Source: Leisingera aquaemixtae
GTDB lineage: Bacteria > Pseudomonadota > Alphaproteobacteria > Rhodobacterales > Rhodobacteraceae
Assembly: GCF_019801145.1 (NCBI RefSeq)
Contig: NZ_JAHVJQ010000009.1
Location: forward strand, 1 to 64,000
DNA length: 64,000 nucleotides
Reading direction: 5' to 3'
Shown here: positions 11,321 through 24,058 of the stretch, piece after piece
How the letters are laid out: each line of letters opens with the position of its first letter
Position numbering within the stretch: position 1 is the stretch's first letter
Made by a program: the position numbers and the translations under genes
Notes under the pieces: generated by a model
The model's input: only the letters and a program-made list of their open reading frames with translations
Told to the model about the DNA's origin: nothing
Database searches by the model: none

Positions 11321-12499
11321 TCAGAACGGGCGCGGCGGGGTCGCCCGCGCGCGGCTGTTGATAAAGAAGGGTTTGTCTTCAACGGTGACCGGCACCAGCC
11401 GCTTGTTCCATTGGCCTTCCTCGTTGACGTAGATTTCGGCCCACAGGTCATCGGTGATGCCGTCGCCGAAGGGCGCCTTGAACTCGGCCAATGCGATGTT
11501 GCGCTTGGTGGTGGGGGACCAGACGCCAGAGGTCACATGCCCCACTTCCCTCTTTTTCTTGTGATAAATCAGCGCGCCGTCCGCCGGTTTGAAGCCGCCG
11601 ATCTCGATTTTGCGCAGGTGGTAGCGCAGGCCGTTCTTTTGCTGGTCCAGCAGCGCCCGGCGGCCGTTGAAATGGCCCTTGGTGAAATCGACCATCTTGC
11701 CGAACCCTAGTTCCAGCGGGCTACGGCCGCGGCCCAGCCGCATGGCGGTGTGCACCGGCTGGAAGTCGAAGCCCGCGGCGATGAACCCGGCCTCGATCCG
11801 GCAGATGTTGAGTGCGTCAAACCCGATCGCCTTCAGCCCCCAGGGGCCGCCTGCCGCCCAAAGCCGATCCCACAGCTCCAGCGCCTTGCCGTTCGGCACC
11901 CACAGCTCATAACCCAGATCGCCGGTGAAGCCAGTGCGTGAAACCCACAGATCCGGCTCGATCTCGCGCCAGTCAAAGGGCTTCATCTCCGCGACAGCCT
12001 CCAGGCCCGCGTCCTGCAGCAATGAGAACGACGTGGGGCCTTGCAGCGACAGCGCCGCGATCTCATCGCTCTCGTCTGTGATTTCCGCGTCAAAGCCCCA
12101 GGCGGTGTCCAGCAGCCAAGTGTACATCGGTTCCTGGCAGCACAGGCGGAAATCCGTCTCCGAGAAGCGGAACAGGGTGCCGTCGTCGATCACCATACCC
12201 TCTTCGTCGCACCACAGGGCATAGCCGACCCGCCCGTCACGCAGCTTGGCGGCGTCGCGGGTCACCAGCCGGTTCACCACCCGCAGCGCGTCCGGCCCGG
12301 TGAGGCGGTATTTGTGCATCGGCGAAATGTCGAACAGGGTGGCCTGATTGCGGATCGCGAAATACTCGAACTCCACCGTGTCCAGCATCCCGGGCGATAC
12401 ATAACCGGCCCAATTGGTCCAGCTCTTGGCAGTGCTGAGCGCTTGCAGCCGCGGCTGGAACGGGGTTTCGATCAGGCCGATGGGTACATGTTTGGTCAT
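11321..12499 (-). CDS. GcvT/DmdA-like aminomethyltransferase family protein
   Basis: A 392-residue protein of the folate-dependent GcvT family. The N-terminal part TVEFEYFAIRNQATLFDISP and the region SLQGPTSFSLLQDAG, later SRTGFTGDLGYELWVP, match the tetrahydrofolate-binding fold. The C-terminal barrel domain with VGHVTSGVWSPTTKRNIALA is also present. Members transfer one-carbon groups to tetrahydrofolate: glycine cleavage T-protein, DMSP demethylase DmdA, or the folate domain of dimethylglycine dehydrogenase. The start at 12499 overlaps the upstream oxidoreductase stop by one base. It likely captures methyl or formaldehyde units released in the pathway. Confidence 0.85.
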   Translation of the reverse strand: MTKHVPIGLIETPFQPRLQALSTAKSWTNWAGYVSPGMLDTVEFEYFAIRNQATLFDISPMHKYRLTGPDALRVVNRLVTRDAAKLRDGRVGYALWCDEEGMVIDDGTLFRFSETDFRLCCQEPMYTWLLDTAWGFDAEITDESDEIAALSLQGPTSFSLLQDAGLEAVAEMKPFDWREIEPDLWVSRTGFTGDLGYELWVPNGKALELWDRLWAAGGPWGLKAIGFDALNICRIEAGFIAAGFDFQPVHTAMRLGRGRSPLELGFGKMVDFTKGHFNGRRALLDQQKNGLRYHLRKIEIGGFKPADGALIYHKKKREVGHVTSGVWSPTTKRNIALAEFKAPFGDGITDDLWAEIYVNEEGQWNKRLVPVTVEDKPFFINSRARATPPRPF

Positions 12500-14070
12500 C
12501 AGAGAACCCCGTCTTTCAGCAGTTGCAGCGCGCTGTTGCGGCCGGCCAGCCCGGTCACGTCGCCACCCGGATGGGCCCCTGCGCCGCAGAGGTAATAGCC
12601 CTCTGGGCCAAAGCGGTAATGCGCCATGCCGTTGGCAGGCCGCACTGTCAGGATCTGGTCGACACCTATCTCCGCATGGTGCCAGTGGCCGCCCGGCGCA
12701 CCGGTCCGCGCCTCGATGCAGGCGGGGCTGAGCACTTGGCGTTCCGTGACCAGCGCACTGATGCCCGGCGCATATTTCTCCAGCGTTGCAAGTGTGGCAG
12801 CTGCCAGCCGTTCACGGGCGGCCGCATCCCAGCCGCCCTCCAGCCCGTAGGGAACGGAGCCGACCACAGCCGACAGCACGTGCCGCCCGCCGCCCGCCAC
12901 TTCTGGATCTGTCAGGCTTGGTATGACGGCCTCGATCACCGGGTTTGCGGGCATTTCCCCGTATTTCGTCGGGTTGAAGGCGCGCTCCACATAGGAGGTG
13001 CTGGGCGCGATCAGTAACCGGCCGGCCATCAATTCGGGGCTAAGGCCAGGGAACACGGGCGCGGCGTTCAGAACCAGGTTCACCTTGGCGGCTGTGCCCT
13101 TGCAGCGCTGGTTGCGCATCCGGCGCACCGCTTCAACGTCGTAATGCTCTGCACCCGCCAGCATCATCGCGGCCATCGGACCGGTGTTGCTCAGAACCGC
13201 CTTGCCAGAGATCTCGGTGCCGTCCTCCAGCACCACGCCTGCAGCGCGATCGTTCTCGGTCAAGACCCGGGCCACGCTGGCACCAGTGCGGATTTCCGCC
13301 CCGGCGGCGCGGGCCGCTGCCTCAAACGCTGCCGCAACCGCGCCCATGCCGCCCATCGGCAGCTGCGCGCCGCCGCCCTGCCCCAGCCGGTACATCAGCG
13401 TGAAAACGGTCCCGGGCGAGCGCGGCCCGGCAAAGGCGCCGCGCACCGCATCCGCCGCCAGCGCGCCCGCCAGCGGGCCGTCCTCGAGGTCGTCCAGGAT
13501 CAGGTCATAGGCGTTGGACAGCAGCACGCGGAGAAACTCGCGCATGTCCTTCTTGCCCATCCGCTTCAGATCCAGCCCCAGCTTGGCCAGCCCGGCAAGC
13601 TCCGTCAGCGTGCCCAGGCTGGCCAGACCGCCCTCAAGCGAGGGCGGGGATTTGGTTGAAAGCTGCCCCAGCAGCCCGGCAAACAGCGTCAGGCGGCGCA
13701 TCATTTCGTCAAAGGCTGCGGCCTCCGGGTGCGGCCGGCCGTCTGCCAGCTCCGCCCTGCCGCTGCGAATCACAGCGTGGTAGCCGTCCTCCGACAGCGA
13801 GACCGCTGGCAGTTCGCGCACCTCCAGCGGCGCGCGGGGAGAGCCAAGGCCCAGTTCCTTCTTCACCTTGGGGTGCAGGTTATACAGCAGATGCGCGATT
13901 TCCGGCGCCTTGATGCCGCCGGCCAGCGTGGTGTTGCGGGCCATGCCGCCGGCGGTTGCGTTCCTTTCGATCACGCAGACCGACTTGCCTTTGCGCGCCA
14001 AGGTTGCTGCCGCGGCCAGCCCGTTGTGGCCCGCGCCGATGACAATTGCGTCGTAGGTGGGTGTGGTCAT
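12499..14070 (-). CDS. Phytoene-desaturase-like NAD(P)/FAD-dependent oxidoreductase 1
   Basis: A 523-residue flavoprotein of the COG1233 (phytoene dehydrogenase/amine oxidase-like) group. It has an N-terminal dinucleotide-binding fingerprint in DAIVIGAGHNGLAAAATLAR and a C-terminal FAD motif region GYYLCGAGAHPGGDVTGLAG. It follows the second oxidoreductase by 10 nt and overlaps the GcvT gene by one base, so all are co-transcribed. No carotenoid genes are nearby, so a carotenoid role is unlikely. In this context it may oxidise an amine or a C-C bond of the catabolic intermediate. Confidence 0.82.
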   Translation of the reverse strand: MTTPTYDAIVIGAGHNGLAAAATLARKGKSVCVIERNATAGGMARNTTLAGGIKAPEIAHLLYNLHPKVKKELGLGSPRAPLEVRELPAVSLSEDGYHAVIRSGRAELADGRPHPEAAAFDEMMRRLTLFAGLLGQLSTKSPPSLEGGLASLGTLTELAGLAKLGLDLKRMGKKDMREFLRVLLSNAYDLILDDLEDGPLAGALAADAVRGAFAGPRSPGTVFTLMYRLGQGGGAQLPMGGMGAVAAAFEAAARAAGAEIRTGASVARVLTENDRAAGVVLEDGTEISGKAVLSNTGPMAAMMLAGAEHYDVEAVRRMRNQRCKGTAAKVNLVLNAAPVFPGLSPELMAGRLLIAPSTSYVERAFNPTKYGEMPANPVIEAVIPSLTDPEVAGGGRHVLSAVVGSVPYGLEGGWDAAARERLAAATLATLEKYAPGISALVTERQVLSPACIEARTGAPGGHWHHAEIGVDQILTVRPANGMAHYRFGPEGYYLCGAGAHPGGDVTGLAGRNSALQLLKDGVL

Positions 14071-14080
14071 CTTCCGCTCC

Positions 14081-15718
14081 TCAGGCCGCGTAGCCGGTCA
14101 TGTTGCCGCTGCGGCCGATGTTGCGCAGGATTTCGCGGGCCGCATTGGCCCCCGGCGCCGCCATCACCCCGCCGCCCGGATGCGCGGAGGAGCCGACGAT
14201 ATACATGCCGTCAATCGGGGTGTCGTATTGCGCATATCCCGGCACCGGGCGGTTGAAGAGCAGCTGGTCGAAAGTCAGCTCGCCCTGGAAGATGTTGCCC
14301 TCGGTCAGGCCCACCTCCTGCTCGATGTCCCAGGGAGTGCGGATCTCTGCGTGCACGGTCTTGCTGCGGATGTCGGGGCAGGCTTGCTCCAGCTTGTCAA
14401 AGACGCAATCGGCAAAGGCGCCGCGGGTCTGGCCGTTCCAGTTGGTGCCCGCGCGCACGCCGCCCACCTCCAGGTCATAAGGCGCATACTGTACGAAGAC
14501 GGTCATCATGTGCTTGCCCGGCGGTGCCATGGTCGGATCGATCTGGCTGGGGATCAGCATGTCGAAGTACGGGTTCTGCGACCAGCGCCCCTCCTTCCAG
14601 TCGTCGTAGGCGCGTTCCAGCTCGTTCAGGCTTTCGGCGCAATGCAGATCGCCGCGCAGGAAGGGCGCGCCCTTGGGGGCGGCGGGGAACTCGGGCAGGG
14701 CATCCAGTGCGATGTTCAGCTTGCCCGAGGAGCCGCGGATCTTGAACCGCTTGACTGCCTTCACGAAATCGCCGGGCAGATGCTGCTGGCCGGTATGCTG
14801 CAGGAAGGTGCGTTTCACATCCATGTTGGAGGCGACGATGGGCGCGTGGTATTCGTCGCCGTTGTCCAGTGCCACGCCGGTCACTTTGCCATTGTCCACC
14901 AGGAAGCGGTCGACGCCGGAGCCGGTGACGATGGTGCCGCCTGCCTCCTCGAAACAGGCCCCCAGCGCGTTGGAAATCGCGCCCATGCCGCCGCGGGCAA
15001 AGCCCCAGGCCCCGATCGCGCCGTCCACGTCGCCCATGTAGTGATGCAGCAGCACATAGGCCGTGCCCGGTGAATAGACCCCCAGCCCGGTGCCGATGAT
15101 CCCGGCCCCGGCAATATGCGCCTTGATCAGGTCATTTTCGAAATGCTCGTCCAGGAAATCGCCGATCGACATCGACCAGAACCGCAGCGTTTCACCCAGC
15201 TCCTTCTTGCCCAGCCCGTGCGCCTGTCTGATCAGGAACAACAACTCACCGATGTCGCGCGGCTTCAGCGAGGTCGGATCCGGCGCATTGCGCAGCAGGA
15301 ACGGCCGGATGAAGCGGCACTGGCGGATCACTGTCTGGCTGAACCGGTCGTAGGCATCCGCATCATGGGCGCTGTGGCGGGAGATTTCCCGGCGCAGCGC
15401 GTCATGGTCGGACATATAGGCAAAGTAATCGCCGTCGCGGCTGAAGCTGGCGCCGCCTTCGTAGGGGATCACCTGCAGCCCGTATTTCGGCAGCTCCAGA
15501 TCGCGCACGATCTCGCGGCGCAGCAGCGAACAGACATAGGAGCAGTTGGAGTAGGTCCAGCCCTCATGCAGCGACCGGCTGACTGCGGCGCCGCCGATCC
15601 AATCGTTCTTTTCCACCACAAGCACCTTCAGCCCGGCTTTGGCCAGGTAACAGGCGGCTGTCAGGCCGTTATGCCCTGCCCCCGCCACGATGGCGTCATA
15701 TCTGTCGTGCTGCCCCAT
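14081..15718 (-). CDS. Phytoene-desaturase-like NAD(P)/FAD-dependent oxidoreductase 2
   Basis: A 545-residue paralogue of the next gene, again COG1233. It shows DAIVAGAGHNGLTAACYLAK at the N-terminus and GMYIVGSSAHPGGGVMAAPG near the C-terminus. Two such proteins in tandem may act as a heteromer or on successive steps. It is the first gene of the operon; an ATG at 15718 is preceded by an AGGAGAG-type site on the minus strand. The promoter region carries operator copy 4 shared with the TetR gene. Substrate unknown. Confidence 0.82.
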   Translation of the reverse strand: MGQHDRYDAIVAGAGHNGLTAACYLAKAGLKVLVVEKNDWIGGAAVSRSLHEGWTYSNCSYVCSLLRREIVRDLELPKYGLQVIPYEGGASFSRDGDYFAYMSDHDALRREISRHSAHDADAYDRFSQTVIRQCRFIRPFLLRNAPDPTSLKPRDIGELLFLIRQAHGLGKKELGETLRFWSMSIGDFLDEHFENDLIKAHIAGAGIIGTGLGVYSPGTAYVLLHHYMGDVDGAIGAWGFARGGMGAISNALGACFEEAGGTIVTGSGVDRFLVDNGKVTGVALDNGDEYHAPIVASNMDVKRTFLQHTGQQHLPGDFVKAVKRFKIRGSSGKLNIALDALPEFPAAPKGAPFLRGDLHCAESLNELERAYDDWKEGRWSQNPYFDMLIPSQIDPTMAPPGKHMMTVFVQYAPYDLEVGGVRAGTNWNGQTRGAFADCVFDKLEQACPDIRSKTVHAEIRTPWDIEQEVGLTEGNIFQGELTFDQLLFNRPVPGYAQYDTPIDGMYIVGSSAHPGGGVMAAPGANAAREILRNIGRSGNMTGYAA

Positions 15719-15784
15719 GAATCTCTCCTGGTCCGGCTGTTGCTGACGGGAGCCTAGTGGAGATGATTTTTGCGGTAAAGTTTT

Positions 15785-15798
15785 TTTGAGCGCTCAAA
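15785..15798. promoter_or_regulatory. TetR-type operator, copy 4
   Basis: Perfect 14-bp palindrome TTTGAGC-GCTCAAA in the divergent region between the oxidoreductase operon and the regulator gene. Placement next to the regulator's own start suggests autoregulation together with control of the operon. Confidence 0.75.
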
Positions 15799-15867
15799 TA
15801 AAAATAATCGGGCTGACAGGCGCAGCGAATTGTGGAACAAGGAAGAAAATTGAATTCTGGATTTCTC

Positions 15868-16524
15868 ATGGTGGCATCGCAGGGCAGCGGCAGGAAGCCG
15901 CGCAAGGAACGCAAGGAAAACGCCGACATGCGGCGGCGGCAGATTCTGGATGCAACGCTGAAATCCATTGTTGCCAACGGCTTGGCCAAGACGACGCTGG
16001 CCACCGTGGCCAATGAGGCCGGGCTGTCCCAGGGCGTTGCGGTTTTCTACTTCAAGTCCAAGACCGGCATTCTGACCGAGGCGCTGCGGGATCAGTACCA
16101 GACCTACGAGGCCCACTGGCAGGCGGCGCTGGACAAGGCACCCGAGGATCCCGCAGCCCGGCTTCGCACGATCATCGAGGCAGATTTCAGCCCCAAGGTC
16201 TGCAACCCCAGCGCCCTTGCTATCTGGTTCGCCTTCTTCGGAGAGCAGAATTTCGTCCCGCAATATGCCGAGATCACCGGTGAGTTTGAGGAGAAGAGGT
16301 CTCAGATGCTTGCCGAGATCTGCCACAAGCTAATACTGGAGGATCCCGTGAAGGCGGACAGGGCCGGCGGGTGGATCGACTCTCTGACTGACGGATATTG
16401 GCAGAAGCTGCATTTGTTCCCGCACATATACAGCCGGGAAGGAGCGCTGGAGCAGACGCTGAACTTCCTTCAAACACTGTTCCCCAGCCATGCGGAGGCT
16501 TTCCAGGCAAAGGCTGGCAGTTAA
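15868..16524 (+). CDS. TetR-family transcriptional regulator, BetI-like
   Basis: A 218-residue regulator. The basic N-terminus and helix-turn-helix lie in RRRQILDATLKSIVANGLAK, TTLATVANEAGLSQGVAVFY and FKSKTGILTEALRD. The C-terminal part matches BetI-type ligand domains (YQTYEAHWQAALDKAP). BetI represses choline/betaine genes, so a related quaternary-amine inducer is plausible. The ATG at 15868 is my choice, though a GTG at 15832 is in frame and would add 12 residues; neither has a strong ribosome-binding site. It is divergent from the oxidoreductase operon, with an operator in between, and is the obvious local regulator of the four palindromes. Confidence 0.85.
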   Translation: MVASQGSGRKPRKERKENADMRRRQILDATLKSIVANGLAKTTLATVANEAGLSQGVAVFYFKSKTGILTEALRDQYQTYEAHWQAALDKAPEDPAARLRTIIEADFSPKVCNPSALAIWFAFFGEQNFVPQYAEITGEFEEKRSQMLAEICHKLILEDPVKADRAGGWIDSLTDGYWQKLHLFPHIYSREGALEQTLNFLQTLFPSHAEAFQAKAGS

Positions 16525-16963
16525 GCCAATCAGCAGCCTGACAGGCGTTCTCCACCACAACGAATTCCCGCAAATATGCATGGAGTTCAGCAAAATGCCT
16601 GCGTTGGACCGCTCGAGTTTCTCCCTCTCGAGGTGCATTTGCCCCGGTGCTGGTTCTGAACACCTGATTTTGGCATGCCTCAAGGCCTGCATGAGGCTGT
16701 TGCAAACTTCTGTTTCCGTGTTCATCGGGATCCCCGCACACAAAATACGCAGTGTGCCACTATTGCGGCAGCATGCAGGGAAGGGGCGCATTGTCCGCTT
16801 AGCGTCAGTTCGTGCCTGGCGCAGCGCAAGGCGAGTTCGTCGCGAATCGCGCTCGTAGTGCGCCACTAGGGGAAAGTAGTGGGGAACGGTATCGCACAGG
16901 TTGCCTTGTCTAGAAATTCTGTCCAGATTGGTCGCGTGAGGCCAATTCTTGAGTAAGAAAGCG
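16525..16963. other. Gene-free stretch at the boundary of the island
   Basis: No frame here shows a family signature. A CCACTA...TAGTGG inverted repeat (CCACT at 16861-16865, loop AGGGGAAAGT, AGTGG at 16876-16880) lies upstream of the resolvase stub and could be part of an old transposon end or resolution site, but that is not demonstrated. Confidence 0.4.
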
Positions 16964-17107
16964 ATGTCCGAATCCGAAAATGCGCCGGTTCGCAAGATCG
17001 GGTACGCCCGTGTCTCGACAGCAGACCAAGACCCGGGCATGCAGACCCAAGCGCTCAAGGACTACGGCGAGACGTTCTCGGCATATTGGTTCGGACCATC
17101 CAACTAG
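16964..17107 (+). pseudogene. N-terminal stub of a small serine resolvase
   Basis: The frame begins MSESENAPVRKIGYARVSTA and continues DQDPGMQTQALKDYG. This is the start of the resolvase/invertase catalytic domain, with the active serine in YARVSTADQD. The frame runs into the left end of an IS5-family element at 17104 and stops after 47 codons. No continuation is visible on the far side. It is therefore a resolvase gene broken by an insertion and probably a further deletion. Confidence 0.75.
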
Positions 17108-17574
17108 GGTCAGGACCCATTGATTTCAGGCTTTCAGCATGATTCACAGGCCGAAAATCGAGCGGTGACATGTCTAATCTCTTCTGGCTGACCGACGCGC
17201 AGATGGCCCGTTTGGAACCCTTTTTCCCGAAATCCCACGGCAAGCCGCGCGTTGATGGCCGGCGCGTCCTGAGTGGAATTATCTTTATCAATCGCAACGG
17301 CTTGCGGTGGCGGGATGCGCCCAAAGAGTACGGCCCGCACAAGACCCTGTACAATCGCTGGAAGCGGTGGAGCGATAAAGGGGTCTTTGCGCGGATCATG
17401 GCAGCCAGCGCGCTGACCACGGACCGAAGCATGTACCCGAAAGACCTCAACCGAAAGCCGCAGCAAAAAGCAGGAAGGGCTAGAATAGAACCGGCGGAAC
17501 CGCTTTGGCGGATCAATTTGCCTGCCTAAAACCGCTTGACTGGGACGGCCTCGTTACCGAAGTCCTGACCCTAG
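17104..17574 (+). mobile_element. Internally deleted IS5-family element with intact ends
   Basis: The ends are perfect 13-bp inverted repeats, CTAGGGTCAGGAC at 17104-17116 and its complement at 17562-17574. The outer CTAG (or TA) may be target duplication. The total is about 470 bp, roughly half of a normal IS5/IS427-type element. It contains only the N-terminal part of a transposase. Such shortened copies can be mobilised in trans by an intact relative. Confidence 0.75.
17170..17529 (+). pseudogene. Truncated IS5-family transposase
   Basis: A 119-codon frame starting MSNLFWLTDAQMARLEPFFP and continuing VDGRRVLSGIIFINRNGLRW and RDAPKEYGPHKTLYNRWKRW, the canonical N-terminal domain of IS5/IS427 transposases. 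After about residue 80 the sequence no longer matches, and the catalytic DDE core is missing. The protein cannot transpose the element by itself. Confidence 0.75.
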
Positions 17575-17929
17575 GGAAGCGCGATCTGTCCGCTTGGTCG
17601 CTAACAGTGTCAATGAGATTGAGAAGGTTGACCTAAGAGGTGCGGGTTTCTTTCCATATGTTTACGCATCAGCGCGTTTCGATCATGTGTTCTCCAAACT
17701 CGACGAGATGAATTGCCGGTAGTGCCACCGAGCCTTATAGGCGCGGGCGCGTGGGAAGCGGCTAACTAGAGTCTGAAAAGGGAGCGCTCGCCGACGCATC
17801 GCAAGCGCAATGAGGAGCGAGTTTTTCCCACACCTAGTCACCTATTTAATAAGGCACTTGTTCGGTAAAGGCCAAATCCTGCTCCCGCAACCAACGTTTC
17901 CGGCCAAGCCCTCGCCACCAGCGGGGGAT
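17575..17929. other. Gene-free stretch between two mobile-element remnants
   Basis: No coding signature or RNA gene is visible. The segment is flanked by the IS5 right end and the IS3 remnant and is probably decayed accessory DNA. Confidence 0.4.
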
Positions 17930-18233
17930 TTTTCGATTCAGGCTGGCCGTGGGAGAACGGATACGGCGAAAGCCTCAACGCCCGGTTCTGCCCCTCTCGG
18001 CAGCATGCTTTGCATGCGCCTGCCGGGCAATGGATGAACTGCTCAACGGTGAATTCTTCTACAGCCTGCACGAGGCTCAGATCCTGATCGAACAATGGAT
18101 GAAGCACTGCAACACAAAGAGATAACGCAGCGCCTTGCGCTATCGCCCGCCAGCTCCGGAAACAGTCGTCCTGAAGGACCAGAGGCCGGTCATACTCTGC
18201 CAATCAAACCGGACCACTCAGGTGGGGCTGATC
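17930..18233 (+). pseudogene. IS3-family transposase remnant (ORFB C-terminus and right end)
   Basis: Plus-strand frames read GWPWENGYGESLNARF and, after a frameshift, DELLNGEFFYSLHEAQILIE, then QWMKHCNTKR, a stop, and ALRYRPPAPE. This is the conserved C-terminus of IS3-family ORFB, including the catalytic glutamate region ENGYGE. A 45-nt foreign hairpin repeat interrupts it at 17992-18036. The DNA ends with GGACCACTCAGGTGGGGCTG before 18233, resembling an IS3-type terminal repeat. The upstream two thirds of the element are gone. Confidence 0.7.
17992..18036 (+). repeat. 45-nt insertable hairpin repeat, copy A
   Basis: Begins CCCTCTCGG, contains GCATGC-TTT-GCATGC and ends CCTGCCGGGCAATGGAT. 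It interrupts an IS3 transposase frame between NARF and DELLNGE. A second copy lies on the minus strand at 46250-46294 inside a different IS3 transposase. 34 of 45 positions agree, and the differences inside the stem are compensatory. Confidence 0.65.
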
Positions 18234-18280
18234 ACATGGTTTATTGAGAAACAAAGTGGAGTAATGTCCTCAATCATGCT

Positions 18281-18296
18281 ACACTCTTTATAGTGT
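18281..18296. promoter_or_regulatory. Short inverted repeat upstream of the peptide gene
   Basis: ACACT and AGTGT flank CTTTAT. TATAGT at 18289-18294 within it could be a -10 box about 25 nt before the peptide start. No convincing -35 hexamer is visible. The IS3 remnant ends about 50 nt upstream, so a new or hybrid promoter is possible. Confidence 0.3.
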
Positions 18297-18318
18297 GATT
18301 TTATGAGTGAGGGGACCC

Positions 18319-18573
18319 ATGACAATTGATCGTGAAGGCAGAGCCTCAGAAGTCGAAGAGAGCCTCGATGATGCGGAACGCAGAGAAGTGCTTGCTTCTC
18401 TTGCCAAGTACACTGCGACCGTAGCCGGGGCATCCACTGTTGTTCTGTCGGCATCTGCATCGGTTTCTCAAGCCAGTGTGAGCGGCTCAGGCGGCAGGCC
18501 AAGACCGCCACGGCCGCCAAGACCTCCGAGGCCCCAGAGGCCGCCGAGACCGCCGAGGCCCAGGAGACCATAG
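18319..18573 (+). CDS. Candidate RiPP precursor with Arg/Pro-rich core
   Basis: An 84-residue peptide. Residues 1-35 are acidic and charged (EVEESLDDAERREVLASLAK). They are followed by a small, weakly hydrophobic stretch YTATVAGASTVVLSASAS, then VSQASVSGSGG and a 25-residue tail built from RPP units with one RPQ and a final RPRRP. RR followed by VL and the hydrophobic stretch also resembles a Tat signal. The GG just before the array resembles a leader-cleavage site. The ATG at 18319 has GAGGGG directly upstream; an in-frame GTG at 18307 is less likely. A hairpin terminator separates it from a PqqD-HprK fusion gene. The tail resembles animal proline-rich antimicrobial peptides, but function is unproven. 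Confidence 0.7.
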   Translation: MTIDREGRASEVEESLDDAERREVLASLAKYTATVAGASTVVLSASASVSQASVSGSGGRPRPPRPPRPPRPQRPPRPPRPRRP

Positions 18574-18591
18574 AGGTGGCTATGGTGATGA

Positions 18592-18633
18592 TTGGCAAAG
18601 CCCGCCACGCGCAGAGGGCTTAGCAATTTTTTT
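18592..18633 (+). terminator. Hairpin with T tract between precursor and modification genes
   Basis: AAGCCC at 18598-18603 pairs with GGGCTT at 18616-18621, with flanking TTG/CAA pairs, followed by seven T residues at 18627-18633. The position allows abundant precursor transcript with reduced read-through into the downstream enzyme genes, a common layout in peptide clusters. Confidence 0.6.
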
Positions 18634-18641
18634 CAGAGCAT

Positions 18642-19880
18642 GTGACGCAGTTGATCGATACCCGCGACGTCAAGAGTGTGCAAAATCTTGACCGAGACCT
18701 GAAGATGCTGCGAAGTCCGGCGCGCTTGGTTGAGAGCGCCGGATTGGGGCGCAGGTTCGTATTATTCGCACCTGCGTCCGGGGCAATTGTCCTTACAGAC
18801 CGGTTGGGGATCGAGCTCCTATCTGGGGTTGTGGCTTGCGAGGATGCGAAGACAATAGCATCCCGGCTTTCAAACATGTCTGCGGCGTCAGAGCCATTCG
18901 GTAGCCAGGAGGCATCTGAAATCGCATCAGCAATCTTGGCCAGCTGGAGAGATGCCGGGCTGTTTGCGAAAGAACAATTGCCCTTTCCTGACGCCGTGAC
19001 CGACCATGGCGGCGAGGCGCTCAATAAACGGGGGTATGTCTCGGAATTCGGACGGCTCCTGATTGAGAGCGACGATCTGAGGCTCGCCGAACAGTTGGAT
19101 GAAATACTTGGGCAGTACGCATGTGAAGATATTGGTGCCGGGCAGGAATGGGCTAAGGCCGGGCGGGAATGGGTTAAGGCACGGTGCGTGTACTGCGAAG
19201 GCGGCGGACGGGGTGTTTTTCTGGGAGATACGCCGCTCTGGGGACGATCAACACGGGATGAGGCGCGGTATTTTCTGATCCGGGAAGCTGCTGAGACGTT
19301 ATGCGGAGACGGTCAGGTGGGCGCTGTCCTGCATGGGGCGGCGGTGCTTGGCAGCTCCGGTGCATTGCTTATTGTTGGGGACAGCGGCCGCGGCAAGTCG
19401 ACACTCGCACAAGGGCTGGTCGAAGCCGGGTGCGGTTTCCTTGCCGACGATCACTTGCCTTTGCATTTGGATGGCCGCCACTTGCTTGCCTTTCCTGCCG
19501 GCAGTGCCGTCAAGCATGGCGCGCGCGAGTTGAGCGAGGTCAGAAGGCTGGCCGTCCGCCACGGCAAGCTCGCGAGTTCTCGAAACAGAGTGAACTATCT
19601 TACTCTTCCCCCCGCTGCAGCTGTTGGAGCACGCGTTCCCATAAAAGCGATTGTGCTGCCCGAGTTCAGAGCGGGAAGCGATCTCGCAGTCGAAAAGATA
19701 GACCCGGAACAGGCCTTCACTGACTGCGTTGTCACTGGCGCCAGGCCATCGCGGAGAAACACGCAAATCACCCCCTTGGCCGTAATGTGTGATACCTTTC
19801 CCGCATACCGGCTCATCTTTGGAGAGTCTCAGCAGTCCGTTTCGGCCTGCTTGGACTTGCTGAGCTCTTGCAACTCTTAG
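18642..19880 (+). CDS. PqqD-like domain fused to HprK-related kinase
   Basis: A 412-residue fusion. Residues about 20-110 resemble a PqqD/RiPP-recognition domain (GAIVLTDRLGIELLSGVVAC, then EIASAILASWRDAGLF). Residues about 225-410 resemble HPr kinase-type ATPases: HGAAVLGSSGALLIVGDSGR at 231-250 leads into P-loop GDSGRGKST (246-254), with ADD at 268-270. HprK relatives in lasso-peptide clusters phosphorylate the precursor peptide, and PqqD domains bind leaders, so this protein could recognise and phosphorylate the upstream peptide. The start is a GTG at 18642 with a weak site; ATG at 18705 is an alternative. A 21-nt tandem duplication at 19140-19181 encodes AGQEWAK-AGREWVK. Confidence 0.75.
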   Translation: MTQLIDTRDVKSVQNLDRDLKMLRSPARLVESAGLGRRFVLFAPASGAIVLTDRLGIELLSGVVACEDAKTIASRLSNMSAASEPFGSQEASEIASAILASWRDAGLFAKEQLPFPDAVTDHGGEALNKRGYVSEFGRLLIESDDLRLAEQLDEILGQYACEDIGAGQEWAKAGREWVKARCVYCEGGGRGVFLGDTPLWGRSTRDEARYFLIREAAETLCGDGQVGAVLHGAAVLGSSGALLIVGDSGRGKSTLAQGLVEAGCGFLADDHLPLHLDGRHLLAFPAGSAVKHGARELSEVRRLAVRHGKLASSRNRVNYLTLPPAAAVGARVPIKAIVLPEFRAGSDLAVEKIDPEQAFTDCVVTGARPSRRNTQITPLAVMCDTFPAYRLIFGESQQSVSACLDLLSSCNS

Positions 19881-19900
19881 AAGAATGCCCATCGGCGCCG

Positions 19901-20986
19901 ATGCGCGCGCTGCTTGGGCTTGTGGCAACGGCAATCTCTGCAGAGCCCCCGCGTGGGTTGGCGGAAATGCTTGCGGAAACCAGTCCGGAAGACCTCGCTC
20001 GGGTGGCCCAGCTGAACCAGGTCCACACTATGATCGCTCCGGTGCTGAAGGCGCATCCGGAAGCTGCCGGCGCCTTGCCGCGGGACCTGTTAATTTTCTT
20101 TGAGACGATGCATCGGGCGAATAACGCGCGTCTGGCATCTGGCATCGCCCAATTGACTGAAATTGGCCTTGCGTTAAGAGAAATTGAGGTTCCTGCTGTC
20201 GTCCTTAAGGGCGGGGCTGACATGCTGGATGCATTGCACGAAGATCAGTCAATCCGCTTTGTAGGTGATCTGGATATTCTTGTGCCCATCAGCCGCGCTT
20301 TGGAGGTCGAAAAGTGCCTATACGACATTGGGGCGACGGCACCTTTTGAGCGTCTGGGTACGAAACCAGAGCTTAACTGGAGAGGGCGGCGGATCCCGGA
20401 GCATCACCTGCCAAAACTCACACGTTCGGACTGGCACTTTCCGGTCGAGCTGCACACAAGAACCGGCCCCGGCCTGACAGATCGCATGCTGGCCGCCGAG
20501 AGCGTGATTTCCCGGCGAGTTCCTGCCAGGGTTCCCGGGCTCTCTTATCCAAACTGGGAGGATCGTGCCTGCCACCTTGTGGTCCATGCAGGCCGTCACT
20601 CAGGGCAGGTCTCTTTGCGTGCATGGGTTGATTGGGTGGCTATGCGGAAGCACTGCGCCTTGTCTGAGGTGCGGTCGCGTTTAGAAGCCCATGACCTTCA
20701 TGAAGCCTATGCCGAGTTTGAGCATCTGGCTGACTTCTTGGAGAATGCTTTGGTGATCTCAAATAACTCCTCTGAGAAATATTCCTTCGTAAGCTCTGCG
20801 TTGAAAGTCCTGTGCGCAGAAAGCAGACCCAGCTATTTCGATTTGCTGCGGCAGGTTTTCCGCCGGGCAAGAATGCTTGCCGAGTCGAAAGATTACCGCA
20901 GATACATTGCAAGAAATTTGCTCGATCCAAGGTGGTGGGCTCGCGTTTGGTCTTCGCATATTGGGTCAAGATGGCGTTCCCACTAA
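19901..20986 (+). CDS. NTP_transf_5-type nucleotidyltransferase
   Basis: A 361-residue protein of the PF14907 nucleotidyltransferase family. The core motif is VVLKGGADMLDAL followed by RFVGDLDILVP, where the D-x-D pair should bind metal-NTP. Similar proteins accompany HprK-type kinases and PqqD-like proteins in lasso-peptide and other peptide clusters, where their exact reaction is little known. ATG 19901 lies 20 nt after the kinase stop. A TTG at 19868 in the same frame would overlap the kinase gene by 13 nt. The two are clearly one operon. Its role in modifying the Arg/Pro peptide is inference. Confidence 0.75.
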   Translation: MRALLGLVATAISAEPPRGLAEMLAETSPEDLARVAQLNQVHTMIAPVLKAHPEAAGALPRDLLIFFETMHRANNARLASGIAQLTEIGLALREIEVPAVVLKGGADMLDALHEDQSIRFVGDLDILVPISRALEVEKCLYDIGATAPFERLGTKPELNWRGRRIPEHHLPKLTRSDWHFPVELHTRTGPGLTDRMLAAESVISRRVPARVPGLSYPNWEDRACHLVVHAGRHSGQVSLRAWVDWVAMRKHCALSEVRSRLEAHDLHEAYAEFEHLADFLENALVISNNSSEKYSFVSSALKVLCAESRPSYFDLLRQVFRRARMLAESKDYRRYIARNLLDPRWWARVWSSHIGSRWRSH

Positions 20987-21134
20987 CCGCGCCGGGTTGA
21001 TGCGCGGCCGGGATCAGAGTTTGATTTTGTTCCAATGGCGTTTGAAGGCGCCCAATTGGCGCCCTAGGTGCCACATTCCTGGCGCTCTGTGCTCCGGTGC
21101 CTAGGCCGGATGGAGGAAGATTCTTCCGCAGGCC

Positions 21135-22214
21135 TCATAACCCGATTTGAAGCAGCCTCCAGCGGCGGTCGAGATCACGCTTTTCCTCACCGCTGCGGGG
21201 GTTGACGAAATAGAGCCTGCTGCGGAGTTCCTGCGGCATGGCAATCGCGGGGAGATCATATTTGGAACCGCTGATCGTTTGGTGTGATGACGGAACACTG
21301 TTTGTGGCGTTGGTGTAGACGGTCGCCTGGGCCATCATGTCAGGCCGCAGCACGTAATCGATAAGCCGGTTAGCAGCGGCGGTATCTCCGGCATCGCTGG
21401 GGATGACAAACAGGTCGGCCCAAAGATTGGCGCCTTCTTTGGGGATGACGTAGTGGTACCTGTCGCTATCCTCTTCCAACAGCGGCGCCAGCCCGTCAGT
21501 GCTCCAGGTAATTGCAAGGCAGATTTCTTCGTCCAGCAGCGCATCATACTGATCAGAATCGAATGAGCGGACATAGGGTGCGATCGAAGACAGGACGCCG
21601 AACGCGGCCTCCAGATCCTGCGCTGAGTGTGATTGCGGGTCCAGCCCAAGGTAGGCAAGCGCTGCCGCCACAACTTCCTCTACCGAATTTACAATCGTGA
21701 TGCCGCAATCTGCGAGCTCGCGGGCATTGGCGGGATCAAACACCAGCGCCCAGCTGTCAAGCGGTGCATCCGGCAGGCGTTCCAGAACCGCGCTCCGGTC
21801 GAACACGATCCCCGTCGTGCCCCAGAGGTAAGGCACGGCGTACCCCTTGGCTTGCGGAGCGGATGCCAGAAACATCTCCATAAGCTCGTCGTCAATAGCG
21901 GCGGCGTTCGGAATACTGGCCAGGCTGATTTCCTGGAGCGCTCCGGCCTCAACCAAACGGCCGACAGTTTCCGAGGCTGCCACCGCCAGGTCGTAACCGG
22001 TGCCGCGGGCAATCAGGCGCGCCTCTGCCTCGTCGGCTTCGCCATAAGTGTCCAGAATGATCCTGGTGCCTGTGGCTTCCTGAAAACTCTCGACGGTCTC
22101 AGGGGCGATGTAGCCGCTCCAGTTGTAGAGCCAGACGTCCTCTGGGTCTGCTGCGGCCGGGGCTGTCATTGCGGCGGCGGCCAAAGCCGCGGCAAAGCGA
22201 GTCATCAGGCGCAT
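21135..22214 (-). CDS. PotD/PotF-like periplasmic binding protein (orphan, with kinase)
   Basis: A 359-residue secreted binding protein. The signal peptide MRLMTRFAAALAAAAMTAPA is followed by DVWLYNWSGYIAPETVESFQ, the first domain of spermidine/putrescine-type binding proteins. There is no permease or ATPase gene beside it. Its start overlaps the 3' end of the hybrid kinase gene by 10 nt, so the two are translated together. This suggests a sensory binding protein that delivers ligand information to the kinase rather than to a transporter. The start at 22214 is chosen for its signal peptide; the longer frame to 22412 lies inside the kinase gene. Confidence 0.82.
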   Translation of the reverse strand: MRLMTRFAAALAAAAMTAPAAADPEDVWLYNWSGYIAPETVESFQEATGTRIILDTYGEADEAEARLIARGTGYDLAVAASETVGRLVEAGALQEISLASIPNAAAIDDELMEMFLASAPQAKGYAVPYLWGTTGIVFDRSAVLERLPDAPLDSWALVFDPANARELADCGITIVNSVEEVVAAALAYLGLDPQSHSAQDLEAAFGVLSSIAPYVRSFDSDQYDALLDEEICLAITWSTDGLAPLLEEDSDRYHYVIPKEGANLWADLFVIPSDAGDTAAANRLIDYVLRPDMMAQATVYTNATNSVPSSHQTISGSKYDLPAIAMPQELRSRLYFVNPRSGEEKRDLDRRWRLLQIGL

Positions 22215-24058
22215 TTTGTGTCCTCTTGATTGGCGGTTCCAGCTGCTTCTGGCCAGAGCCGAGTCAGAGCGGCGGCGAGCGCCGCTTTGTTGACAGGTTT
22301 TGCAAGGTAGTCGTTCATGCCCGCGGACAGGCCCTCGGAGCGTTGTTCGCTCATCGCGTTGGCGGACAGGCCAATGACCGGAACCGGCGGCAGGCTTTGC
22401 GCCTTCTCCCACTCCCTGATTGCCCGGGTGGCTCCCAAGCCGTCCAATTCAGGCATCCGGACATCCATGAGCACCACATCAGGTGCCCAGTTTTGCGTCA
22501 GCTCCACCGCTTCAAATCCGTTGCCTGCGGTGATGACGGTGCACCCCAGCTTTTCCAGCATTTTGCCCGCGACCATCTGGTTCACCCTGTTGTCGTCAAC
22601 GACCAGCACTTTCTTGTTGAACGAAGCGCTGACAAGAGCCTGCGCTGGAGCCTCCGCGGGAGGCGGGACATCCTCCACTGGAAATTGCAAAGTGAATTCC
22701 GCGCCTTCGCCCTCCGCGCTATGCAACGAGATCGTGCCGCCGATCGCCTTGGCGAGGTTCTTCACGATGGCAAGGCCGAGCCCGGTTCCGCCAAACCGCG
22801 TGGTGGTGGTGGCATCGGCCTGTGCGAATTGCTCGAATATCCGCTCCTGCGCTTCTGCAGGTATCCCGATTCCACTGTCCTTCACGGCAATCTGGATCAG
22901 CCGCGTCCCGTCCGGACCGGGCGCCAATTCCTGCAGCTTCACATCGACGGACCCGTTCTCGGTGAATTTCAACGCGTTGCTGATCAGGTTGACAACGATC
23001 TGACGGATCGCAGTGCTGTATCCCAGCACATGCCAGCTGCCTACCTGCGGGTCCGCGGTCAGTTTCAGGGCGATCCTGGCGCTTTGGGCGCGCGCGGAAA
23101 ACAGGTCTATGACCTCCAGGCATGTCGCGCGGACGTTGAACGCCTCAGCCTCCATTTCCAGCTTGCCTGCTTCAGCTTTGGACAAGTCCAGCACATCATT
23201 GATAATGCTCAGCAGGGAATTTCCGCTCACGATCATCATGCGGATCATGTGCCGCTGCTTGTCATCAAGCTGGGTGTCGTTCAGCAGTTCCGCCAGGCCC
23301 AGAACACCGTTCAGCGGGGTCCGGATTTCGTGGCTCATCGTCGCCAGGAAAACCGACTTGGCCTCGGATGCGGCCTCGGCTTTGCGTCGGCTTGCTTCAA
23401 TCTCTGCCTGTGCACTGATGATGAACCGTTCCATCGGCAGATGCACAAACCGGGCGGCGACGTAGACGCCAATAGCGCCGATGGCGACAGCCACCAGCGC
23501 ATAGAGCAGCTGGACTTTTGCTGCGATCCGGGCGGTCTGGGCCTCAGCCTCCTTGACCTTCATGAAGACTGGCAGCAACCGCCTGGACAGGTCCGAGGCC
23601 AATGCGGCGGCCTTAGTATCGGAGGCAGCTTCCCGGTCTTCCCCCGGATCAGTGAGAACCCCGGAAAGAAACAGGATGTCTTGCAGTTCGGACACGGGAT
23701 TGAGCGTTGGCTGGGACAGGATTTCCTGCGCTTGCGGCGAAAACGCTGCGAGCGCATCGGCACCGGAAAGCTCTGCCAGCGAGTCGGCTGCAGGCCTGGC
23801 GCTGCGGCGGATGCGCCCCCGCGCAATCAGCGCTCTCTGGCTGCCCGGGTCGTCTTTCAATTCATCAAAGGCCAGCGACAGTTCAGCAAGCGAAACCAGA
23901 AGCTGGTCCAGCACCCTGGTGTTTTCCACCCGCCGGGCCACGCTTCTCTGCCCGGACAGGGTGACGCAAAATGCGGCCACTGCGGCGGCCAGCAGGATCG
24001 CCAAGGCGATACCGCTGCGCAGCCGGAGGTATCGCCGGGTAATGCGCTGCTGTGTCAT
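22205..24058 (-). CDS. Hybrid sensor histidine kinase with receiver domain
   Basis: A 617-residue membrane kinase. A first membrane helix at about 15-33 (SGIALAILLAAAVAAFCVTL) and a second at about 187-205 bracket a periplasmic helical sensor of about 150 residues. Then come HisKA (FLATMSHEIRTPLNG, phospho-histidine in SHEIR), HATPase (DSGIGIPAEAQERIFEQFAQ, GGTGLGLAIVKNLAK) and a C-terminal receiver (VLVVDDNRVNQM, VVLMDVRMPELDG). No separate DNA-binding regulator is adjacent. The downstream binding protein overlaps it. It is divergent from the TRAP operon at 24390, a plausible target or partner through a shared ligand. Confidence 0.88.
   Translation of the reverse strand: MTQQRITRRYLRLRSGIALAILLAAAVAAFCVTLSGQRSVARRVENTRVLDQLLVSLAELSLAFDELKDDPGSQRALIARGRIRRSARPAADSLAELSGADALAAFSPQAQEILSQPTLNPVSELQDILFLSGVLTDPGEDREAASDTKAAALASDLSRRLLPVFMKVKEAEAQTARIAAKVQLLYALVAVAIGAIGVYVAARFVHLPMERFIISAQAEIEASRRKAEAASEAKSVFLATMSHEIRTPLNGVLGLAELLNDTQLDDKQRHMIRMMIVSGNSLLSIINDVLDLSKAEAGKLEMEAEAFNVRATCLEVIDLFSARAQSARIALKLTADPQVGSWHVLGYSTAIRQIVVNLISNALKFTENGSVDVKLQELAPGPDGTRLIQIAVKDSGIGIPAEAQERIFEQFAQADATTTTRFGGTGLGLAIVKNLAKAIGGTISLHSAEGEGAEFTLQFPVEDVPPPAEAPAQALVSASFNKKVLVVDDNRVNQMVAGKMLEKLGCTVITAGNGFEAVELTQNWAPDVVLMDVRMPELDGLGATRAIREWEKAQSLPPVPVIGLSANAMSEQRSEGLSAGMNDYLAKPVNKAALAAALTRLWPEAAGTANQEDTKCA

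Follow-up and report, generated by a model that had tools for sequence, protein, structure and literature searches.

In a 64,000-nucleotide window of Leisingera aquaemixtae DNA (contig NZ_JAHVJQ010000009.1), three consecutive genes on the (+) strand encode a short peptide, an HprK-type kinase with a PqqD-like N-terminus and a nucleotidyltransferase (Table 1). They constitute a real, conserved cassette, probably for peptide modification, whose most surprising trait is a peptide leader of the twin-arginine translocation (Tat) type, and by sequence the cassette is best classed as a fused and miniaturised form of HPr-rel-A, a named system that is uncharacterised. An earlier sequence-only reading had described the three open reading frames (ORFs) in a row, an 84-residue peptide ending in GG plus a 25-residue RPP array, the kinase motifs and an NTP_transf_5 protein as the third gene. 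ORF calls, translation and profile matches confirm each of these, the third gene matching PF14907 above cut-off (E 3.5e-23).

A peptide family with a conserved leader and variable tails

Searching genome contigs with the kinase yielded three first loci, from Aliiruegeria lutimaris (L021), an uncultured Rhodobacteraceae bacterium (L022) and Roseovarius albus (L023), each with a peptide directly upstream of the kinase that has the same leader as the window peptide and a different tail. A profile from four peptides matched 40 entries in the protein database (8000 candidates were scored with an E limit of 10; weakest match 5e-4), three of which are the peptides of these loci. Eight of the 40, again including those three, lie on contigs of the same size as contigs with kinase matches (5909, 155860, 17101, 3350, 3075, 2100, 4301 and 6205), suggesting that peptide and kinase are linked on one contig. 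Alignment A4 has 44 rows, made up of the 40 listed peptides minus fragment P0084, plus the window peptide and four locus peptides; two peptides of L080 bring the set to 46, those of L151-L153 and L156/L168 bring it to 50, and the peptides of L142, L143 and L170 stand outside both counts.

Residues R21, R22, K30, Y31 and V49 are invariant in all 46 peptides, and residue 44 is Ser or Thr throughout. Residue 55 is Ser in 43 of the 46, the other 3 having Tyr, Gly occupies position 56 in 43, and a Ser-Gly pair stands at the leader/tail junction in 46 of 50 peptides vs 0 of 5 DctP signals (five of the seven described below were compared). By eye, L142 alone among the three peptides outside these counts has this pair. 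The sequence-only reading had proposed the serines before the GG as phospho-sites; the conserved hydroxyls are instead those of the leader and of the leader/tail junction.

Leader codons show 20 synonymous and 5 nonsynonymous differences of 37 between the window and L021, 25 and 5 for L022, and 24 and 6 for L023, a synonymous excess that argues clearly for selection on the leader protein. Measured as sequence identity to the window, the leader (84-86% in L021-L023, 70-76% in L080) is more conserved in these loci than either the kinase (49-52% and 42%) or the nucleotidyltransferase (44-45%). Conserved leaders and variable tails, which the sequence-only reading had named as a check, are borne out across 50 peptides, with tails differing between clades. 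The cassette thus has the layout of a ribosomally synthesized and post-translationally modified peptide (RiPP) system, in which a precursor of this kind adjoins modifying enzymes. That the peptide is instead a decayed or chance ORF is hardly credible: the window peptide is absent from the 40 listed database proteins and fragments of an insertion sequence (IS) and a resolvase lie close by, but the synonymous pattern of the leader codons, the 40 protein homologues and the intact enzyme motifs all speak against it.

The leader resembles Tat signal peptides

All 46 peptides combine a twin arginine, followed by V or A at +2 and L, V or M at +3, with an uncharged run of at least 15 residues from the Tyr of KY, which together are the sequence features of a Tat substrate (twin arginine, hydrophobic residues, uncharged stretch). 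In the window peptide R21 R22 and K30 Y31 precede the uncharged stretch, and a putative cleavage site, placed by eye, follows SQA52. Compared with nine Tat signals the leader profile scored 19.1, a value reached by none of 100 column shuffles (best 11.4), and compared with 21 HPr-rel-A leaders it scored 18.8, again reached by none of 100 (best 13.0).

When leader profile A10 was run against 325 family genomes, it matched 14 places in 13 of them, namely the window, two Tropicibacter peptides, a new peptide in genome G145, seven DctP N-termini and three unclear or false matches. Outside the known peptides and G145, 7 of 10 matches thus came from the N-terminus of a periplasmic DctP protein (all 7 so assigned by Pfam) with an ERRNFLKL-type signal; the other three (L163, L164, L166) were set aside as neither peptides nor clear Tat proteins. 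The sequence-only reading had seen no dedicated exporter, and none is present among the neighbours scanned; what has changed is that a Tat-signal-like leader would explain its absence.

Relation to the HPr-rel-A system

Of 299 phylum genomes, 50 contain a match above cut-off to the HPr-rel-A kinase model TIGR04352; none of 14 control genomes does. We fetched 40 canonical HPr-rel-A loci, 37 of them above this cut-off. In 31 of the 37, the kinase match has an ORF with a Tat-type N-terminus ending at most 900 bases upstream of it, vs 5 of 211 control ORFs from these loci (the longest frames without overlap on either strand, including spurious ones, an imperfectly matched set). The 31 include L140, which looks false, and miss L134, a real Tat-type protein, leaving the total unchanged. 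The nucleotidyltransferase profile matched at most 60 bases from the kinase end in 23 of the 37 loci, at 440 bases in 1 and at 1.5-2.4 kb in 6, with no match within the fetched stretch in 7; at L082 the PF14907 match reaches E 8e-62. All three small ORFs tested score as TIGR04353, the separate PqqD_rel_X protein, above cut-off. XrtA/PEP-CTERM exopolysaccharide families score above cut-off in 4 of 6 canonical loci with hand-picked neighbours (L111, L113, L119, L122), while at L130 an asparagine-synthase-type gene falls short of the XrtA model cut-off and at L121 a sugar epimerase stays below cut-offs.

Like HPr-rel-A, the window has a PqqD-type protein, an HprK-type kinase and a PF14907 protein in a row, the NTP_transf_5 gene standing next to the kinase, with a Tat-type protein directly upstream, a trait that we add here and that lies outside the official definition. 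Unlike HPr-rel-A, its PqqD and kinase parts are fused, with no TIGR04353 match in the fusion protein up to E 1, its kinase scores 40 bits where the TIGR04352 cut-off is 200, and its substrate candidate is a short peptide rather than a protein of 130-290 aa. Leader profile A3 gave a single match, at E 0.22, in 30 canonical loci, and this near-absence indicates that, Tat-likeness aside, there is no close relationship between the short leaders and the longer HPr-rel-A Tat proteins. The suggestion of a self-contained, free-standing new system gives way to that of an HPr-rel-A variant.

The kinase and the nucleotidyltransferase

The window kinase matches PF07475 at E 5e-5 and 23 bits (cut-off 33) and has the P-loop kinase fold of the HprK/PEPCK superfamily. 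Its GDSGRGKST P-loop aligns to the sequences of HprK structures, with G249, G251, K252, S253 and T254 invariant in 33 of 33 aligned kinases, and the ADD motif lies within FLADDH at residues 267-271; both motifs had been noted in the sequence-only reading. An AlphaFold2 model of the kinase has a mean pLDDT (predicted local distance difference test) of 93.5, and a structure search with it returned PEPCK entries only, a result that does not exclude HprK or PqqD matches.

Pfam sees no PqqD part in the window kinase itself, and a PDB sequence search with the N-domain alone gave nothing up to E 1. PF05402 is matched in 2 of 33 kinase homologues, the kinase N-terminal profile aligns to three PqqD_rel_X proteins with an hhalign probability of 88 (E 3e-6, 77 columns), and the modelled N-domain consists of three strands followed by three helices. 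The fusion proposed from the bare sequence is thus supported, with a PqqD-like domain of the RiPP recognition element (RRE) type that may bind the leader. In the nucleotidyltransferase, K114, G115, R130, D134, D136, H179 and H196 are invariant in 10 of 10 aligned sequences, and the catalytic motifs of both enzymes are intact.

Variable tails and the RPP array

Tails have a net charge above 0 in 43 of 50 peptides and of +10 or more in 11. The cationic types comprise RPP units in the window, RMRRV units in G016, poly-Arg, KKKKYL units in R. albus and mixed Arg/Lys, with Lys/Arg-rich tails such as KPKKKKRKKKRRGRKRRR in G011, G015 and G018. The largest peptide group has a conserved GQNPGN-KPVG-APF-GTRGQVPSG tail, some other peptides have Gly/Asn-rich tails, and the tail at R. 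albus locus 1 is acidic, with DPP units (DPPQDPPYDPP) and a net charge of -3. In G016, Tropicibacter oceani (G359) and R. albus L080, a single enzyme pair follows two tandem peptide genes whose products share a leader and differ greatly in tail; these gene pairs lie at L036 7434-8150, L037 8454-9109 and L080 5548-6617. The peptide at L168 8914-9222 is short, has a leader of the Tat type and carries GGGHGN / GRGG repeats in its tail; it lies upstream of a third-clade kinase and nucleotidyltransferase.

The window peptide ends in SGSGG followed by 25 residues of R/P units. Proline-rich antimicrobial peptides share such an Arg/Pro-rich tail, and a classical RiPP, with a plain RRE leader cut by a protease encoded elsewhere and an RPP tail that enters cells and hits the ribosome, would fit the leader/variable-tail split and the in-frame, codon-diverse array. 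Compared with AGGCCGCCG, and leaving out the first and last array residues, six units of the array show 8 synonymous changes and 1 nonsynonymous change (expected synonymous fraction 0.30, P 4e-4); array units that arose by duplication are not independent, so this supports selection on the array protein weakly. The array is found in the window peptide alone among the 50 collected, with no counterpart in the other 49, and the acidic DPP units of its near relative R. albus, together with Gly/Asn-rich and Arg/Lys-rich tails elsewhere, indicate that a proline-rich ribosome blocker is not what the family conserves. Conservation thus lends no support to the antimicrobial reading of the array, which is possible but not favoured. 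With the Tat-likeness of the leader, and neither protease nor exporter among the neighbouring genes scanned, we consider the classical RiPP quite unlikely.

Loci, distribution and genomic setting

Enzyme-side inspection covered 15 loci whose HprK-like kinase frames span some 360 to 490 aa, some weaker kinase matches lying outside this set. In 13 of the 15 a leader peptide is adjacent to the long kinase, so the pairing that the sequence-only reading wished to see in other genomes is largely present; L169 and L171 are without a recognised peptide. One or two leader peptides lie directly upstream in the window, L021, L022, L023, L036/L026, L037/L025, L080 and L151-L153 (10 of 10), and a short Tat-type peptide lies upstream of the kinase at L143 and L170. 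At L142 (4823-5095) the leader peptide, with leader GRREFLARAGRFAAFTPPAVTLLL and junction GSGG, is on the opposite strand just downstream, convergent with the kinase. The G145 peptide, found blind by the leader profile, is followed at L168 by a kinase (E 5.6e-69) and a nucleotidyltransferase (E 2e-71). Counting G145, a nucleotidyltransferase stands beside the kinase in 13 of 16 loci, with a weak match in L169. HprK-like matches at L003, L004, L005, L008, L010 and L011 were rejected, since they have no leader peptide and look like other, unfused kinase families.

The cassette is rare. Strong kinase matches occurred in 2 of 394 family genomes and 2 of 21 genus genomes (G000, G016); the genus genomes G011 and G015 match the kinase weakly and, with G018, carry the third-clade version. 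The peptide profile matched 3 of 394 family genomes (one false, a 5398-aa frame), 3 of 61 relatives (one weakly) and 1 of 385 class genomes, and tblastn of kinase and peptide against plasmid records found no match. Both cassette flanks are present in G014, G015 and G018, on different contigs of draft assemblies.

Polysaccharide genes flank the cassette in G016, R. albus L080 and G015 (Poly_export, epimerase, methyltransferases), and polysaccharide-type genes are recognised by sequence in G011 and G018 (a glycosyltransferase at L152 by Pfam) and by eye at L170. These neighbourhoods bear on two further explanations. In one, the peptide is cationic and exported by Tat, its leader is guarded by the PqqD domain, and the two enzymes have a different substrate, for example a sugar or lipid intermediate in polysaccharide synthesis. 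The presence of polysaccharide genes beside L036, L080, L151 and canonical HPr-rel-A loci fits this, as does the kinase fold, which is also that of PEPCK, an enzyme with a small-molecule substrate. Against it, the PqqD domain is fused to the kinase, and the conserved S-G junction would have no reason; we judge this explanation unlikely. In the other, which we think very unlikely, a cytoplasmic peptide is switched by phosphorylation, HPr-like, and controls polysaccharide synthesis, as the HprK kinship of the kinase and the polysaccharide neighbourhoods of some relatives might suggest; Tat-type leaders with AxA-like ends (by eye), strongly varying tails and a nucleotidyltransferase that is usually present all speak against it.

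Within the cassette, the peptide ATG is preceded by a GAGGGG box at 18309-18314, and an alternative GTG at 18307 would give 88 aa. Peptide and kinase genes are separated by 68 bases, where promoter and terminator scans and RNA folds showed no excess over shuffles, and the nucleotidyltransferase frame overlaps the kinase end by 13 bases.

Table 1. Features of the cassette, with positions in the window
Feature	Position	Strand	Size and evidence
Peptide gene P0001	18319..18573	+	84 aa; ORF calling and homologues
Tat-like leader, peptide residues 1-52	18319..18474	+	alignment of 46 peptides; likeness to Tat signals
Junction Ser55-Gly56, candidate modification site	18481..18486	+	conservation; putative function
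RPP array, peptide residues 60-84	18496..18570	+	translation; codon comparison
PqqD-HprK fusion kinase P0002	18642..19880	+	412 aa; profile matches, AlphaFold2 model
PqqD/RRE-like domain, kinase residues ~30-112	18729..18977	+	profile comparison; model
P-loop GDSGRGKST, kinase residues 246-254	19377..19403	+	alignment of 33 kinases
Asp269-Asp270 motif	19446..19451	+	invariant in 33/33
NTP_transf_5 nucleotidyltransferase P0003	19868..20986	+	372 aa; PF14907

The window genes scanned at 12499-24058 include FAD oxidoreductases, a TetR regulator, transposase and resolvase pieces, a solute-binding protein and a hybrid histidine kinase. Left of the cassette lie a truncated resolvase N-terminus (16949-17107; PF00239 E 1e-4, just below cut-off) and a partial IS5-type transposase (17170-17529), which suggest an acquired segment. 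Two adjacent FAD oxidoreductases, phytoene-desaturase-like by eye, stand beside the TetR regulator at 12499-15718. Elsewhere, the R. albus peptide-kinase pair at L023 is accompanied by a TPR protein whose C-terminus looks ATP-grasp-like (1439-2881) and a TauD-type dioxygenase by Pfam (573-1442), possibly further modifying enzymes. At L152 (2289-6812) a 1507-aa surface-type protein with FG-GAP and cadherin-like repeats is transcribed away from the peptide gene, and L151 has a similar frame in the same place.

A proposed order of events

The mechanism that we favour, and to which we give even chances, is that PqqD holds the Tat leader, the kinase and nucleotidyltransferase build a phosphate-linked group at the junction, and Tat exports the peptide to the surface. 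The cassette would encode a single small peptide for export, together with its two cytoplasmic modifying enzymes. The first ~52 residues of the peptide would be a Tat-type signal peptide doubling as a RiPP-style leader; by binding it, the PqqD-like domain would deliver the substrate to the kinase and could delay export until modification is complete. The HprK/PEPCK-fold kinase would phosphorylate a junction hydroxyl, most likely Ser55 of S-V-S-G and next Ser44, after which the nucleotidyltransferase would add a hexose or nucleotidyl group to the phosphate, as PsmK and PsmN do on pseudomycoidin. Tat would then export the peptide and the signal would be cut near Ala52, leaving a cationic peptide of ~30 residues with a modified N-terminal Ser box that may act at the cell surface, probably touching surface polysaccharide.

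The precedent lies in lasso peptides, to whose kinase/nucleotidyltransferase pair the sequence-only reading had already drawn a link that is supported here. PsmK is described as phosphorylating the C-terminal Ser of pseudomycoidin, and PsmN as attaching one or two hexoses to the residue so phosphorylated, or possibly as a true nucleotidyltransferase (PMC9266682, PMC8498205). Like the paeninodin and pseudomycoidin systems (PadeK, PsmK, PsmN), the window has an HprK-like kinase and a nucleotidyltransferase that may act on a ribosomal peptide (PMC9266682, PMC8498205); unlike them, its kinase carries its own PqqD-like domain and the peptides have no conserved C-terminal Ser. As the sequence-only reading had also noted, no lasso B2 protease or C cyclase was seen, here among the window genes scanned at 12499-24058 (the rest of the window and genome was not scanned).

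For an export signal on a RiPP precursor the parallel is with bufferins. Sec signals on such precursors are called highly unusual, their use in the natural host is stated to have been shown experimentally for bufferins only, and it is argued that some mechanism must prevent premature export, perhaps a partner protein masking the signal (PMC12452194). As in bufferins, the precursor leader would serve as export signal, with a Tat-like signal, a kinase and a nucleotidyltransferase here in place of the Sec signal and MNIO enzymes there (PMC12452194), and a PqqD domain fused to the kinase fits a signal-masking role. Term searches of the main texts of an RRE survey (PMC12710340) and of RRE-Finder (PMC7470986) found no "HPr", "kinase" or "twin-arginine". 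Our literature search for HprK-related kinases with PqqD, HprK with exosortase, HPr-rel-A and PF14907 found nothing, that for RiPP recognition elements with HPr kinase led to lasso peptides only, and that for twin-arginine with RiPP, precursor peptide and PqqD had no "twin-arginine" among the matches listed.

Several observations weigh against this mechanism. Peptide modification, leader binding and export are all steps that we infer from sequence. Tat-likeness is here profile similarity, not the output of a trained predictor; the motif is RR-E-V-L, not the strongest form SRRxFLK, and the leader profile scores HPr-rel-A leaders no higher than generic Tat signals. Two NCBIfam Tat models give weak matches, one in 12 of 44 peptides (best E 0.0044) and the other in 2 (best E 0.0028), and unrelated models match up to 4 of 44, one of them reaching E 1e-4 in one peptide. 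Lasso kinases use a C-terminal Ser, with which 4 of 46 peptides end, the window peptide ending in Pro. At the more distant loci in G016 and Tropicibacter the leader (36-44% identity) is about level with the nucleotidyltransferase (39-40%), the G016 kinase being at 33%. The kinases at L169 and L171, weaker profile matches (E 3e-11 and 8e-14) with N-termini not PqqD-like by eye, have no recognised leader peptide, and the nucleotidyltransferase is missing beside L023, L143 and L171, although the R. albus genome has one at its other locus, L080. Polysaccharide genes accompany 5 of the first 10 loci, with none in the stretches read at the window, L021, L022, L023 and L037.

A more tentative extension, less probable than the mechanism itself, would make the RRE a Tat proofreading chaperone, have the kinase and nucleotidyltransferase place a phosphate-linked sugar or nucleotide on the conserved Ser-Gly junction and let the exported cationic conjugate join surface polysaccharide; such a scheme would also explain the orphan HPr-rel-A systems of exopolysaccharide clusters.

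For HPr-rel-A, a name without a function in the literature we found, this suggests a family of candidate substrates and a sequence of steps that can be tested. The variable tails are a natural series of short polycationic peptides, and if an RRE domain does guard a Tat-type RiPP leader, peptide modification would be tied to Tat quality control.

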